Below, piece after piece: positions 14,915-53,301 of a stretch of DNA of 64,000 nucleotides. Positions within the stretch are counted from its first letter, which is position 1, and each line of letters begins with the position of its first letter. The stretch is taken from contig CAIUWA010000018.1 in the NCBI GenBank assembly GCA_903902745.1, positions 1-64,000 of the forward strand, in the 5' to 3' direction. Source of the stretch: an uncultured Opitutia bacterium. GTDB taxonomy: Bacteria; Verrucomicrobiota; Verrucomicrobiia; Opitutales; Opitutaceae. The position numbers and the translations under genes are program-made. The notes under the pieces were generated by a model, which was given only the letters and a program-made list of their open reading frames with translations, had not been told where the DNA came from and ran no database searches.

Positions 14915-16783
14915 TTACCATTTCCACTCCACGCCACCAAAGACACCGAAGCCGAGGGCGGGATAGCCGTTCACCTCCTCGTATTTTTCATTGAGGAGAT
15001 TCTCGAGCCGCACCTTCAGCGTCAGGCGCTTGGTCGCCGCCCATGCGCCATAGAGCCGCACGACGGTGTAGTCCTCGCCATCAATCGTGGCAAAGGTCCT
15101 GGCATTCACGTCCCGCCGATGGGCCGCAATGACAACGCCTGTCCCTGCACTGAAGCCGCCACCAAAGTCGCGCCAGACATCCGCGGAAAAGCTCTGCCGC
15201 GGCCGGCGCAACAGGCGGGTCTGCGACGTGAGGTTCTGCGCCTCGAGATAGGTGAAGGCCGCGCGCACCTCGATGGCTCCCGGCAGCGTCGTCTGCGCCG
15301 TCAGCTCCGCGCCGCGCGTGCGGGCGCGCTGGATGTTCTCGACGCTAGAAAAACTCGGCGTACTCGCGATGAGATCCGTGAAGTCGGTCGCGAACCATGT
15401 GGCCCCGAGCGCCCCGCGTTTTTGCGGCAGGTAATAATCCACCCCGGCGTCCCAGCCGCGCGCCTTTTCCGGGCGGAGGTTGGGGTTGCCGTTGTAGAAC
15501 GCACTCTTGCCATAAAGGTCCAGGAACCCCGGTGAACGGAACGCCGTGCCGTAACTGGCGCGCAGCTTGAGCGAGCGCTGCGCGAGCAGCCAGGCCGCGG
15601 TCGCCCGGCCGGTCGTGGCGCGGCCAAACGTGTCGAAGTCGTCGCTGCGCAGGCCCGCCGTGAGATAAAGGTCGTCGGCCGGGGAGATTTCATCCTGCGC
15701 AAAGAACGCGAGCAGCCCCTGCTTCTGGTTGATGTCGCCGAAGCCGGTGTTGCGCGTGTGGTTCGCCTCGGCCGTCACGCCCGCGGTGATCCGGTTCCGC
15801 TCCAGCCCGGCATAGGTCGTCTGCGCGTCGAGCACGGCCCGTCGGTTTTTCACGACCGTGATGCCGGTCGCACGGCCCGTGCGCGGCGTCTCCGCCACGA
15901 AACGGCGGTCCTGACCGCCAAGCACGGCGTGCGCGGTCCAGACGTCGGACAGCTTGGCATCGGCAAAGGACGTCACGAGCAGGTTTTCCTCCCGCTCCCG
16001 GTTGTCCGGATCATTGGTGAAGCGATCGCCCGGATCGCCATAGACGCCGTGGAACCAGCGCACGGTGCCACCCACGGCAACACGCTCGCTCACCTTGCGG
16101 TCGAGCCGCACGGTGACATTGGCGCTGTCGAATGCATTGTTCACCCGCTGGTTGTCGGTCTGCCCGCCTTGGGCGGAAAAATTGTAGGCATTGCTACCCA
16201 CCTCACCTTGGGCCGTGACCGTGCCCTGCAACGTGCCAAAGCTGCCGGCTTCGAAGGCGACATGCCCCGCCGAGGCCCCCGCGCCGCGCTGCGCGCGCAA
16301 AGCCACGACTCCGCCGATGGCTTCGCCGCCGTAAAGCGTGCTCTGCGGCCCATGCGCCACCTCCAGGCTGTCGCAGGCCGACACGCACGCGCCGCCGAGG
16401 AAGACGTTGTAGTCGGTGTTGGGGTCGTTCAACCGGATGCCGTCGACGAGGAAGAGCGTCTGGTTCGAATTCGCCCCGCGCAGGAAGAGCGACGCCACCG
16501 CGCCTGACTGTCCCGAGGCAAACAACGGCACACCGGGAATGCCGCCCAGGGCATCGGACAGCGAACTGACCTGCCGGCGCGCGAGGTCGGCCGCGGTAAT
16601 CACATCCACCACGGAGCCGATGGTCAGCGGCGATTCCGCCGTACGCGTGGCCGTGGTGACGATCGGCGCAAGCTGCGGCGGCACGACAAAATTCTGGGCA
16701 CGCAAGGGCACAAGGGCCCCGCCCGCGGCAAGGACGAGGAGGAACCGGCGCGCGGGGCGCGCCAGCGTGGCAATAGGTTTCAT
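14915..16783 (-). CDS. TonB-dependent outer-membrane receptor, probably for cobalamin (BtuB-like)
   Basis: This 622-residue receptor has a signal peptide (RRFLLVLAAGGALVPLRAQ), a TonB-box-like APIVTTATRT, a plug domain (LSDALGGIPGVPLF, FLRGANSNQTLFLVDGIRLND, GPQSTLYGGEAIGGVVAL) and a beta-barrel ending with the aromatic C-terminus GGVEWKW needed for outer-membrane insertion. A cobalamin riboswitch in its leader makes vitamin B12 or a precursor the likely ligand, a role that fits the B12-dependent methionine synthase next door. The start at 16783 is chosen because the open upstream codons are not signal-peptide-like and fall within the leader. Confidence 0.9.
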   Translation of the reverse strand: MKPIATLARPARRFLLVLAAGGALVPLRAQNFVVPPQLAPIVTTATRTAESPLTIGSVVDVITAADLARRQVSSLSDALGGIPGVPLFASGQSGAVASLFLRGANSNQTLFLVDGIRLNDPNTDYNVFLGGACVSACDSLEVAHGPQSTLYGGEAIGGVVALRAQRGAGASAGHVAFEAGSFGTLQGTVTAQGEVGSNAYNFSAQGGQTDNQRVNNAFDSANVTVRLDRKVSERVAVGGTVRWFHGVYGDPGDRFTNDPDNREREENLLVTSFADAKLSDVWTAHAVLGGQDRRFVAETPRTGRATGITVVKNRRAVLDAQTTYAGLERNRITAGVTAEANHTRNTGFGDINQKQGLLAFFAQDEISPADDLYLTAGLRSDDFDTFGRATTGRATAAWLLAQRSLKLRASYGTAFRSPGFLDLYGKSAFYNGNPNLRPEKARGWDAGVDYYLPQKRGALGATWFATDFTDLIASTPSFSSVENIQRARTRGAELTAQTTLPGAIEVRAAFTYLEAQNLTSQTRLLRRPRQSFSADVWRDFGGGFSAGTGVVIAAHRRDVNARTFATIDGEDYTVVRLYGAWAATKRLTLKVRLENLLNEKYEEVNGYPALGFGVFGGVEWKW

Positions 16784-16924
16784 GGTGTCTGCTTTCCGTA
16801 GCCGGCAAGAGCAGAACCACCCGCCGTCGCCGGGAGATGTTGCCACTCTCACGCTTCATTTTGGCGATGAAGTTTTCGCGAACGACACGCCTGGCTGGTC
16901 ATCAGCCGGACGCCGGACGCGTGA

Positions 16925-17205
16925 GTTTCCCGGGGCAGGTGTTCGGACTCCGCATGTGGGGCCGCTTGGCGGCAAGTTCCAAGGGCCAAGGATCATATAT
17001 CAGGAGTTCGGTCCCTCCTTGTTACTTGCCCCTTGTCACTTGCTACTTGCGCGCAAAGCGCGCCCTTCCTCGCCCCCGCCTTCACCGGGACTGGTGTCCC
17101 GATTGGCTGTGCTCCCGCTGAAGCGGAATGGGGGTCTGTGATGCGTTACCGCAGCGCAACTGTGGCCGGTTTTCACGGCCTTCCCTGCTTGCCGGAAATT
17201 AAAAA
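16925..17205 (-). promoter_or_regulatory. cobalamin riboswitch with an internal insertion
   Basis: Read on the minus strand, the 5' core GCAGGGAAGGCCGTGAAAAC then CGGCCACAGTTGCGCTGCGG (17192-17146) matches the conserved aptamer core, and GAGTCCGAACACCTGCC (16950-16934) is a clear B12 box at the 3' end. The usual aptamer is about 200 nt; this one spans about 280 because a repetitive segment (17017-17050, copies of CAAGTRRCAAG) sits between core and B12 box, probably in a peripheral stem. It ends about 150 nt before the receptor start codon. B12 binding would be expected to shut off the receptor gene. Confidence 0.85.
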
Positions 17206-17270
17206 AGAACGTCGAACAGCGCGACCCTCTTTGACCATCCGCCACTCGGCAACAAAATTCATATCAACGA

Positions 17271-17286
17271 ATCGTCATATGACGAT
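17271..17286. promoter_or_regulatory. 16-bp perfect palindrome upstream of the split metH, candidate operator
   Basis: ATCGTCATATGACGAT is fully self-complementary and lies 55 bp before the metH N-terminal start, in the shared 558-bp region between the B12 receptor and metH. An AT-rich flank with another ATATC/GATAT pair surrounds it. A dimeric repressor site is plausible; an ArsR-family regulator is encoded 4 kb downstream, but a link is only a guess. Confidence 0.45.
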
Positions 17287-17341
17287 ATGTCATCTTGCCA
17301 AAGGTCGTGTCCTGGGAGATTGTCCACCAAATCCTACTGCC

Positions 17342-18418
17342 ATGGCCACCGCGACCACCCGCCCGCCCGACTCCTTCCCCGCCCTTCAGGTGCTGTTCAA
17401 GCAGCGCATTGTCGTGCTTGATGGCGCCATGGGCTCGATGATCCAGACCTACAAGCTGGAAGAGCCCGACTTCCGCGGCGAACGCTTCAAATCCCATCCG
17501 CACGATCTCAAGGGCAACAATGACCTGCTCTGCCTCACCCGCCCCGATGTCATCGAGGGGATTCACTCCCAGTATTTCGCTGCGGGCGCCGATATGGTTG
17601 AGACGAACACCTTCAGCTCCACTTCCATCGCGCAGGCCGACTACAAGCTCGAGTCCATCGTCACCGAGCTGAATCTCGCGGCCGTCGCCGTCGCCCGCCG
17701 CGCCGCGCAAAAGGCTGAGGCCGCCACGCCCGGCCGCCGCTGCTTCGTCGCCGGTGCCATCGGGCCGCTCAACCGCACGCTCTCGATGTCCCCGGATGTC
17801 AACCGCCCCGACTTCCGCGCCGTCGTTTGGGACCAGGTCGTCACCGCCTATGCCGAGCAGATTCGGGCGCTGCTGGACGGCGGCGTGGACACGCTCCTCG
17901 TCGAGACGATCTTCGACACCCTCAACTCCAAAGCCGCCCTCTTCGCCATCGAGTCGGTCTTCGACGAGCGCGGGTACCGCGTGCCCGTCATGATTTCCGT
18001 GACGATCACCGACGCCTCCGGCCGCACCCTCTCCGGCCAGACCATCGGCGCGTTCTACAACAGCATCCGCCACGCGAAGCCGTTCAGTGTCGGCATCAAC
18101 TGCGCCCTCGGCGGCCGCGCCATGCGCCCCTACGTCGAGGAACTCGCCAAGATTGCCGAGTGCTACGTCACTTGCTACCCGAATGCCGGCCTGCCCAATG
18201 CCTTCGGCGGCTACGATGAGACACCCGCCGACATGGCCGCCGTGCTCGGCGAATTTGCCGCGAGCGGTTTCGTCAACCTCGTCGGCGGCTGCTGCGGCTC
18301 CACGCCGCCGCACATCGCCGCCATCGCCCAGGCCGTCAAGGGCAAGGCGCCGCACCAGGTCCCGCCGCATTCCCCCGCGATGCAGCTCAGCGGCCTCGAG
18401 GTGCTGACGGTTGCCTGA
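17342..18418 (+). CDS. metH: methionine synthase, homocysteine S-methyltransferase part (MetH N-terminal half)
   Basis: This 358-residue protein equals the first domain of MetH: it binds zinc and homocysteine and receives the methyl group. It has the opening [25 protein letters not shown] with Cys254, and [11 protein letters not shown] with Cys317 and Cys318; together these are the three zinc-binding cysteines. It ends at [10 protein letters not shown], exactly where single-chain MetH passes into the pterin domain. The remaining domains follow as a separate ORF 102 bp downstream. The ORF is open upstream of the ATG at 17342, but those codons lie in leader sequence. Confidence 0.95.
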
Positions 18419-18420
18419 CG

Positions 18421-18515
18421 AAATCGTTCTCGTTCTTCGTTCTCTTTCCCGTTCTCTCAATGGATCGGGAAAGCGACCGAGAGAACGAGAACGATTAAGA
18501 GAACGAGAACGATTT
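18421..18515. repeat. AATCGTTCTCG inverted repeat (family A, copy 1) between the metH halves
   Basis: AAATCGTTCTCGTTCT (18421-18436) has its exact reverse complement at 18500-18515, and inner arms (CGTTCTC runs against GAGAACG runs, CTTTCCCG against CGGGAAAG) allow a long cruciform or RNA hairpin. It fills almost all of the gap between the two metH ORFs. Two relatives lie at 39234 and 42215. Confidence 0.85.
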
Positions 18516-18520
18516 CCTTC

Positions 18521-21277
<2,757 letters not shown>

Positions 21278-39233: not shown

Positions 39234-39326
39234 AAATCGTTCTCGTTCTCGTAATCGTTCTCGTTCTCTCGCTTCGACCAAGAGAGAGAGAGGAGAACGA
39301 GAACGATTACGAGAACGAGGAACGAT
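39234..39326. repeat. AATCGTTCTCG inverted repeat (family A, copy 2)
   Basis: AAATCGTTCTCGTTCTCGTA at the left is mirrored by TACGAGAACGAGGAACGAT at the right, with a second inner pair (ATCGTTCTCGTTCTC / GAGAACGAGAACGAT). It lies between the receiver and sensor genes. Confidence 0.85.
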
Positions 39327-42214: not shown

Positions 42215-42299
42215 AATCGTTCTCGTACTTCGTTCTCATTCTCGTTCTCGCTCCAAACTCGGAAGAGAACGACGAACGATTACGAGAATGAGAACGATT
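42215..42299. repeat. AATCGTTCTCG inverted repeat (family A, copy 3)
   Basis: AATCGTTCTCGTACTTCG-type left arm and a right arm ending GAGAATGAGAACGATT are complementary with few mismatches; CATTCTCG/CGAGAATG is also present. It lies between the MFS gene and a secreted protein gene. Confidence 0.82.
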
Positions 42300-42371
42300 A
42301 AAGTCCCGGATTGCGCGGAACTAGGAACGGAACCATTCTCGGGTCGGCGCAGTCCCATCGAGTTCAAGCCC

Positions 42372-51523: not shown

Positions 51524-53206
51524 ATGAAAGAGCGGCCCCTTCTTCTCTCCGCGCTCTTCGCGGGCTGCCTTGGCGCCCTGCTGCTGCTGTGGTGGTTGAC
51601 GAGGGGTGGATTTGAAATCTGGGGCACGCGTCAGTTCGCGCCGGGCAAGGCTCCCGCCATTGCCCGGGCACCGGCACCGGTGCGACGCCCGCCGGCCGCT
51701 TCGGCCAGTCGCACTCTCCCGACGAATCTGCTGGCGAATGAACTGCTGGCCTACCTGAAGCTGCGCCTGGAGCGCACGGATGCGCGGCCCAATGAAAGCG
51801 TGCTGACCTTCAAGGACGCGGAGGCCTACCAGCGGTTTCTCGCGCGAGCCAAACAGGCCGGCCTTACCCTGCTGGGGCAGTCGGACAGCCTGCTGACGGT
51901 GCGGGTGCATCATGATTCCCTCGCCGGCCTGCAAAACGACATCCTCGCCAATGCCACGGACTACGAGGCGGTGAGCGGTAACTACCTCGTGCAAATCCCG
52001 CCACTCCCGACCAAGCAGGACCGCGCGGCCGTGAGCCAGGTGCCGTTTGGCAACAGTGCGCTGGGTTTTCTGGGCGCCACCGGTGACCGCACCGACTGGG
52101 GCCGCGGAAGCACCATCGCCATCCTCGACAGCGGCGTCAGCGCGGATGTCACCTTCGCCCCCGGGCAGGTGCGCTACCTCGACATCGGCCTCGGCACCAC
52201 CCCCGGCACGGGCACCGATGACGGCCACGGCACCGCGGTGGCGGCGCTCGCGGGCGGCTTTGCGCCGGACGCCCCCGGTATCGCGCCCTCGGCGGGCATT
52301 CTCAGCATCCGGGTCACCGGCGCGGACGGCACGAGCGACATTTTCACCGTGTCGCAGGCGATCCTGGCCGCGGTAGATGGCGGGGCCCAGATCATCAACA
52401 TCAGCATGGGCGGCTACGATACGAGCGCGGTCCTGACGCGGGCCATCGATTATGCCACCGCCCACGGCGCGGTCATCGTGGCAGCCGCCGGCAACGACCA
52501 GGCCGCGCAGCTCACGTGGCCCGCCGCCGAGCCGCGCGTCATCTCCGTCGGCGCGGTCGACGCGCTGGAGCAACAGGTCCTTTTCTCCAACTCGAGTCCG
52601 CAATTGCAGATCACCGCCCCCGGCTACGGCGTCCAGACCGCCTGGCTGAACGGCCAGCGTGTGATCCTCGACGGCACCTCCGTGAGCGCGCCGCTCGTCG
52701 CTGGAGCCATCGCGGCGGTCATGTCGCAAAACCCCGGACTGAACGCGGCCCAAGCCTGGGACATCCTGCAGCAATACACCAGCGACGGCGGCGCCCCGGG
52801 GGCCGATGCCAGTTTCGGCAAGGGCATTCTCAACCTCGGCTGGGCGCTGAACCACACCGATCCCACGCGCATCGACACCGCGGTCTCCAGCCACTACTAC
52901 GACCCGGCCACGGGCGAGATGGAGTTCGTCGTGCAGAACCGCAGCGGACAGACCGTCACCGGCATGATGCTCAACATCGATGCGGGCGGCCAGAACAGCA
53001 CCTTCCCCATCCCCCCGCTGAAAGCCGGCGCGACCTACATTGCAAAACAACCGGTCGACCAGACCGCGCTCGCCACCACCGGCCGCATCGAATTCCGCAC
53101 CCAGCTCGTCAATCCCACCGGCCTCACCGACCAGGTCCCGGCAAACAACCGGAAGGCAAGTGTGCTGACGCCGCCGGCACCGGCCGGAACGACAAGCGGG
53201 AATTAA
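51524..53206 (+). CDS. membrane-anchored subtilisin-like serine protease (S8)
   Basis: This 560-residue protein has an N-terminal anchor (LLLSALFAGCLGALLLLWWL), a Pro/Ala linker, a prodomain-like part (about 60-165) and a subtilase domain with the triad Asp202 (AILDSGV), His235 (DDGHGTAVA) and Ser386 (GTSVSAPLVAG); the oxyanion Asn is in VAAAGND. A C-terminal beta domain (about 450-560, CARDB-like: MEFVVQNRSGQTVTGMMLNIDAGG) follows. It would act outside the cytoplasm. The 196-bp gap before it has no visible feature other than AT-rich sequence. Confidence 0.9.
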   Translation: MKERPLLLSALFAGCLGALLLLWWLTRGGFEIWGTRQFAPGKAPAIARAPAPVRRPPAASASRTLPTNLLANELLAYLKLRLERTDARPNESVLTFKDAEAYQRFLARAKQAGLTLLGQSDSLLTVRVHHDSLAGLQNDILANATDYEAVSGNYLVQIPPLPTKQDRAAVSQVPFGNSALGFLGATGDRTDWGRGSTIAILDSGVSADVTFAPGQVRYLDIGLGTTPGTGTDDGHGTAVAALAGGFAPDAPGIAPSAGILSIRVTGADGTSDIFTVSQAILAAVDGGAQIINISMGGYDTSAVLTRAIDYATAHGAVIVAAAGNDQAAQLTWPAAEPRVISVGAVDALEQQVLFSNSSPQLQITAPGYGVQTAWLNGQRVILDGTSVSAPLVAGAIAAVMSQNPGLNAAQAWDILQQYTSDGGAPGADASFGKGILNLGWALNHTDPTRIDTAVSSHYYDPATGEMEFVVQNRSGQTVTGMMLNIDAGGQNSTFPIPPLKAGATYIAKQPVDQTALATTGRIEFRTQLVNPTGLTDQVPANNRKASVLTPPAPAGTTSGN

Positions 53207-53219
53207 GGGCCGCGCGGCG

Positions 53220-53301
53220 GGTAGTTGGTAGTTGGGAATTCGTAATTTGGATTTGGCTCCGGCGGTTTGCCACCAACTGCCAATTCCAAACTGCTAACTA
53301 C
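53220..53301. repeat. TAGTTGG-type intergenic hairpin (family F, copy 2)
   Basis: GGTAGTTGGTAGTTGG at the left is mirrored by CCAACTGCC and CTGCTAACTAC at the right, with AATTCGTAATTTGGA inside. It resembles the element at 9243-9310 and sits 14 bp after the protease stop. Confidence 0.65.

Follow-up and report, generated by a model that had tools for sequence, protein, structure and literature searches.

A heptad palindrome in the facultative arm of a cobalamin riboswitch from an Opitutaceae bacterium

The riboswitch and its gene context

The window, by which we mean the whole 64,000-nucleotide stretch of DNA analysed, contains a cobalamin riboswitch upstream of a btuB-like gene for a TonB-dependent receptor, with metH in divergent orientation (Table 1). 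The RF00174 covariance model, the check that the original prediction of a cobalamin riboswitch had proposed, matched the minus strand over its full length (17229..16917) and above its gathering threshold, with an E value of 3.2e-5, and thereby supported that assignment. No other match is listed for the source genome, an assembly of 52 contigs totalling 3.29 Mb. With its 313 nt it is also the longest full-length match among the matches listed, the next one spanning 259 nt; a copy from the congener G002 (L095) reaches 310 nt, but it lies under the cut-off.

The nearest relatives of the btuB-like gene came from metagenome-assembled genomes labelled Opitutaceae or Opitutae, so the source genome most likely belongs to Opitutaceae. 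The btuB-like gene is the probable target of the riboswitch and likely functions in B12 uptake. The riboswitch probably belongs to class I with a P6 extension and probably acts as an OFF switch. It resembles other RF00174 members in its full-length model match, its B12-box region, its loops that could form a kissing pair between L5 and L13, and its P6-side extension, and differs from them in that one facultative arm is a heptad palindrome of about 107 nt.

Two further observations concern the leaders of these genes. An inverted repeat, CATATC...GATATG, lies at 17255-17300 between the riboswitch and metH and is possibly an operator; visual inspection suggests similar inverted repeats upstream of further btuB/metH pairs. 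The btuB leader of L235 (about 1500-1959) seemingly has no aptamer while the end of the platform (GATGAAGCGTGAGAGTGG) is retained, which could reflect a deletion or an assembly collapse.

Table 1. Features of the riboswitch locus, in window coordinates.
Feature	Position	Strand	Basis
Cobalamin riboswitch aptamer (RF00174, model 1-189)	16917..17229	-	35.0 bits, gathering 31.5
TonB-dependent receptor gene, btuB-like from its position, probable target of the riboswitch	14915..16783, ATG at 16783	-	PF00593, PF07715; orthologues
metH part 1 in divergent orientation, with homocysteine S-methyltransferase domain	17342..18418	+	PF02574
Facultative arm of ~107 nt, filled by the heptad palindrome and its GC-rich ends	16959..17065	-	model alignment and fold
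5' (RNA sense) heptad arm, CAAGTAG CAAGTGA CAAGGGG CAAGTAA CAAG (repeat of the original prediction)	17016..17049	-	sequence, TRF
Heptad arm on the 3' side (RNA sense), complement of the 5' arm	16971..16993	-	14-nt arms 86% complementary; fold
GC-rich inverted repeat GCGCGC-TTT-GCGCGC, 5' edge of arm	17049..17063	-	sequence; similar layout in relatives by eye
GC-rich inverted repeat GCCGC-CAA-GCGGC, 3' edge of arm	16961..16973	-	sequence; similar layout in relatives by eye
B12-box region (AGCCAATC)	17101..17108	-	model alignment; conserved in relatives
Putative L5 loop (UUGCGC) of the L5-L13 kissing pair	17154..17159	-	inferred from sequence; conserved
Putative P13 hairpin, loop CGC able to pair with L5 GCG	16854..16872	-	inferred from sequence; conserved

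The arm hairpin and the aptamer core

Alignment to the covariance model placed a 108-nt insertion (17061-16954) past the B12 box, in the gap that separates model positions 151 and 152. The 34-bp stretch of CAAGT repeats reported in the original prediction is real, with CAAGTRR-type units on the minus strand and TRF periods of 7 and 14 nt, but it is only half of the structure: a second, complementary arm at 16971-16984 had been missed, and the two together form the long hairpin of Table 1. In the predicted minimum-energy fold, the GC-rich inverted repeats at both edges extend the stem of the arm and form no hairpins of their own. The segment 16952-17062 folds at -44.1 kcal/mol compared to a shuffle mean of -32.8 (z -3.35), and none of 200 shuffles was as good. 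Likewise, the lag-7 self-match of a 126-nt segment of the window was 0.45, a value reached by none of 5000 letter shuffles. The number of single hits of CAAGTNNCAAG in the window with one mismatch allowed (8 against 7.6 expected) is at chance level and was dropped as evidence; what is unusual about these hits is that six of the eight cluster at the riboswitch arm, where they form the palindrome. According to PMC11260477, the Mycobacterium tuberculosis metE switch has a P6 extension with a junction of P7, P8, P10, and P11; by analogy, the facultative arm at the 151/152 model gap would lie in the P6 extension and correspond to P11 in that numbering.

To the side of this insertion the aptamer core appeared intact. 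Conservation was counted over the region from P3 through the platform, at 113 columns in which 90% or more of 44 leaders, that of the window among them, agree. The window deviates at none of these columns, in agreement with the original statement that the core and the B12 box are preserved, and the mean number of deviations was 1.4 in 11 heptad-armed leaders compared to 3.1 in the 33 others (p 0.13). In silico, the core helices that were checked pair with probabilities of 0.86-1.0 when the arm is present and 0.96-1.0 when it is removed, P4 being at 1.0 in both cases. Thus, neither of the two outcomes named beforehand as speaking against a riboswitch, the lack of a model match or core pairs unable to form, was observed. 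The sequence AGCCAATC corresponds to the B12-box motif. The GCG of the putative L5 loop and the CGC of the putative L13 loop are pairable and conserved; L13 reads CGCC in the window and CGCA in many relatives, its CGC still being able to pair with L5.

Heptads across the source genome and in related leaders

The motif CAAGTRRCAAG occurs 28 times in the source genome (both strands) at 13 places including the window, compared to five matches for the reversed control. We fetched 15 own-genome stretches, of which three (L061-L063) were weak BLAST places without heptads; the remaining 12 contain heptads, and at least seven of them have two inverted arms, making at least eight with the window. In the source genome, a strict two-armed pattern gave 10 overlapping matches per strand at five places and none for its control. 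Among 38 genomes this pattern was present in eight, namely 8/25 of the same family and 0/13 of other families; its control is not always zero, with one match per strand in G001, G003, and G039 and three in G007.

One copy lies in frame in prfC, where 43 residues (211-253) stand opposite 10 in a solved RF3 exactly at the element. In a comparison of nine relatives, this site proved empty in G026 and G012 and short in G009 and G011, and G029 and G017 have a different filling; CAAGT heptads occupy it in G018, and heptads of another sequence in G002 and G005. Within the reading frames of alaS, an ABC transporter, and a sulfatase there are likewise heptad copies or single arrays; comparison with solved structures did not reveal an insertion at their heptads, and the in-frame claim is therefore limited to prfC. 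With the heptad at 13 places, at least eight of them two-armed and one in frame in a protein gene, the window palindrome looks like a dispersed palindromic repeat and not like a local expansion. Because the copies are degenerate, their kinship rests on the heptad, the palindrome, and the layout.

Other repeats were seen in the window. Another family of palindromes, its arms built of hexads (TCGTTC...GAGAAC), is represented by three copies at 18424-18514, 39237-39325, and 42217-42300, one of them between the two metH genes. At 53200-53300, directly after a reading frame that is subtilase-like by eye, there is a palindrome with 7-nt periodicity (GGTAGTT... / ...AACTACC) and an adjoining GC-rich inverted repeat. 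The metH region (17342-21277) consists of two genes, one for the homocysteine-methyltransferase part and one for the pterin, B12-binding, and activation parts, and TCCGTCC heptads lie in the latter at 20336-20371, in the stretch that joins the B12-binding domain to the activation domain. G012 carries a CAAGT palindrome at roughly this place, and G005 some 80 additional nt. A splitting of metH by the hexad palindrome at 18424-18514 was considered and rejected, as a separate second frame of 900-977 aa is present in seven of nine matching relatives (the other two being G012, with 704 and 302 aa, and G026, with 1313 aa), so that the split is not peculiar to the source genome.

A scan for btuB returned 48 loci, 49 with the window, and the arm was measurable in 44. 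The upstream part was cut off in L212 and L225, and the aptamer motif was not found in L204, L232, and L235; L201 and L220, with one letter changed in the 3' motif, were added to the measured set by hand, and the arm of L230, overcounted through a match to an upstream motif, is short either way. The arm was short (33-70 nt) in 31 leaders and long (81-149 nt) in 13, so that its length varies among relatives, in support of the earlier placement of the insertion in a peripheral arm. Periodicity was evaluated by letter shuffling (p < 0.01) in arms of at least 75 nt, and 11 of the 13 long arms have a 7-nt period, L209 and L213 failing the threshold. Apart from the window, the arm is thus long and heptad-built in 10 of 43 measured leaders. 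By eye, eight of the 11 heptad arms are of the CAAGT type, one consists of CGAGTGG (L189), and two are of a CAAA type (L191, L205). Two congeners have a heptad arm at the same site, with CAAGTAA heptads in G001 (L188) and GC-richer CGAGTGG heptads in G002 (L189).

On a quick btuB tree (47 rows, 44 labelled), on which gain and loss are not separable, the arm state requires at least eight changes, six of them forced by starred branches. Shuffled labels required a mean of 9.9, and 35 of 500 shuffles were as low as eight; the arm state is therefore scattered nearly at random over the family, as expected if long arms were repeatedly gained, lost, or both. The flanks on either side align in two pairs of near sisters, L191/L218 and L216/L210, while the arm itself has been replaced, and no target-site duplication is visible in either pair. 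A third pair, L219/L223, is too distant and aligns poorly.

To relate the arm type to the rest of each genome, heptads were counted in the 41 genomes that carry 42 of the measured leaders (all 44 except L201 and L220). CAAGTNNCAAG was at least 1.4 times as frequent as its reversed control in six of eight genomes with a CAAGT arm versus 0/33 others (Fisher 6e-6), with a ratio cut that was chosen after the counts had been seen and a reversed control that is imperfect (43 in G238). Genome-wide enrichment is lacking for L190 and L195, both of which have a CAAGT arm. For the other heptads the link between arm type and genome is weak or absent. CGAGNGG is found 10 times versus 0 for the control in the genome of L189, one of the ten being the arm itself, and it is also enriched in genomes without a CGAGTGG-type arm, such as G261 (31 vs 3), G241 (23 vs 8), and G246 (20 vs 8). 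CAAANNN is not enriched in the genomes with CAAA arms (2 vs 11 for L191, both matches lying in the arm itself, and 3 vs 2 for L205), and is enriched in G000 (14 vs 0) and G238 (22 vs 4), both with CAAGT-type arms.

Origin and role of the arm

We consider it probable that the facultative arm is recurrently occupied by lineage-specific heptad palindromes, which are tolerated as a separate hairpin. The original prediction read the repeat as the expansion of a simple repeat that could alter folding kinetics. In a local expansion, slippage would have enlarged an existing stem in place and hairpin-templated repair would have kept the arms complementary. The short arm of relatives is indeed often already a stem, and PMC4692102 proposes slippage to explain why heptameric repeats are abundant in bacteria. 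The unit, however, is a palindrome of degenerate heptads, and the heptad recurs at 12 other places in the genome, several with both a palindrome and a GC-rich neighbor, one copy being in frame in prfC; most CAAGT arms belong to genomes that are rich in dispersed CAAGT heptads, and the arm was replaced and not lengthened in two near-sister pairs. Together with the changes on the tree, these observations make a local expansion decidedly unlikely. A riboswitch decaying after disruption by the repeat would be consistent with a score only 3.5 bits over gathering and with the Rfam results of the heptad-armed leaders: of 15 loci run against the gathering threshold, three passed (L201, L205, and L220), and L205 was the only one to do so among eight further heptad-armed loci (7/8 below). 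The copies of the two congeners scored 34.5 (L094, for L188) and 26.4 bits (L095, for L189). Yet some short-armed relatives fall under the cut-off as well (L099, 30.5 bits), so the arm is not the sole cause of low scores, and with all conserved columns kept in the window, heptad-armed leaders no more degraded than the others, and core helices that form in silico, decay is highly improbable.

Alternatively, a long stable hairpin could have been selected to tune the riboswitch through pausing, an RNase III site, RNA stability, or a scaffold. This agrees with the recurrent presence of the arm on the btuB tree, with two-sided changes in 7 of 34 consensus pairs of a four-arm alignment, where pairing is kept while the letters change, and with the finding that an arm's own partner was the best one in 6 of 11 riboswitch arms. 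Against it, the covariation term of the same alignment was only -0.12, the own partner was best in only three of eight CAAGT-type riboswitch arms, and 31 of 44 leaders manage with a short arm. Among the copies within the source genome the own partner was best in 0/8 (mean -37.9 kcal/mol with self versus -39.8 with others), and arm-specific coevolution was accordingly rejected for them; within one heptad type, arm pairing can follow from the heptad alone. The compensatory changes therefore hint only faintly at selection on the arm stem. A tuning role is possible, although we regard selection for such a role as an unlikely explanation of the arm.

In the preferred reading of recurrent occupation by heptad palindromes, the arm would hold one copy of a palindromic repeat that is dispersed in the genome; both arms of this repeat consist of degenerate (CAAGTNN) heptads, and its ends are formed by GC-rich inverted repeats. 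The repeat family would spread in the genome, its copies spreading or being swapped by transposition, gene conversion, or recombination, and would persist where a stem or linker is harmless, such as between genes, in a protein linker as in prfC, or in the facultative arm of a riboswitch. The copy is predicted to fold as a long separate hairpin pointing away from the ligand-binding core, and this structural separation may be why the arm is tolerated. As the palindrome folds apart, the core and the downstream platform would be as in relatives; the switch most likely still works, its regulation would be unchanged, and the arm would be an outward hairpin with no role of its own. More tentatively, and with considerable doubt on our part, several families of heptad palindromes could settle preferentially in this riboswitch arm of Opitutaceae and be swapped there as whole arms. 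They might be spread by an undescribed process, one that assembles palindromes out of lineage-specific heptads and also introduces linkers into proteins such as RF3.

The nearest parallel is reportedly found in the STRR heptanucleotide repeats in the RNase P RNA of cyanobacteria (Vioque, 1997). As a class, STRR are direct tandem heptanucleotide repeats. They share with the present arm the 7-nt periodicity inside a structured RNA gene; here, in contrast, inverted and degenerate heptad arrays form a palindrome in an Opitutaceae riboswitch. Like the Rickettsia palindromic elements as described in PMC10969869, which are short dispersed palindromes lying in some cases in frame in protein genes, the prfC copy is a dispersed palindrome in frame in a protein gene; ours differ in being heptad-built and in showing no conserved encoded peptide, and they are likened by description and not by sequence. 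REP/BIME and MITE elements (PMC3733652, PMC2817692, PMC10969869) are also dispersed and palindromic with many intergenic copies, whereas the present elements have long imperfect stems of degenerate heptads; of the MITE traits, the palindrome is present and a duplication is not seen in the two alignable filled/short pairs, in which the old arm was replaced. Opitutaceae heptad palindromes were not found among the matches listed from the open literature on repeats, palindromes, and cobalamin riboswitches, a weak hint that they may be undescribed so far. A term search in PMC4264200 returned nothing.

Since heptad-armed leaders often fall below the Rfam cut-off, such riboswitches may be under-annotated. 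With genomic repeats taking over one side arm time and again and the remainder of the RNA conserved, these leaders amount to a series of natural arm-swap experiments on the modularity of the riboswitch.
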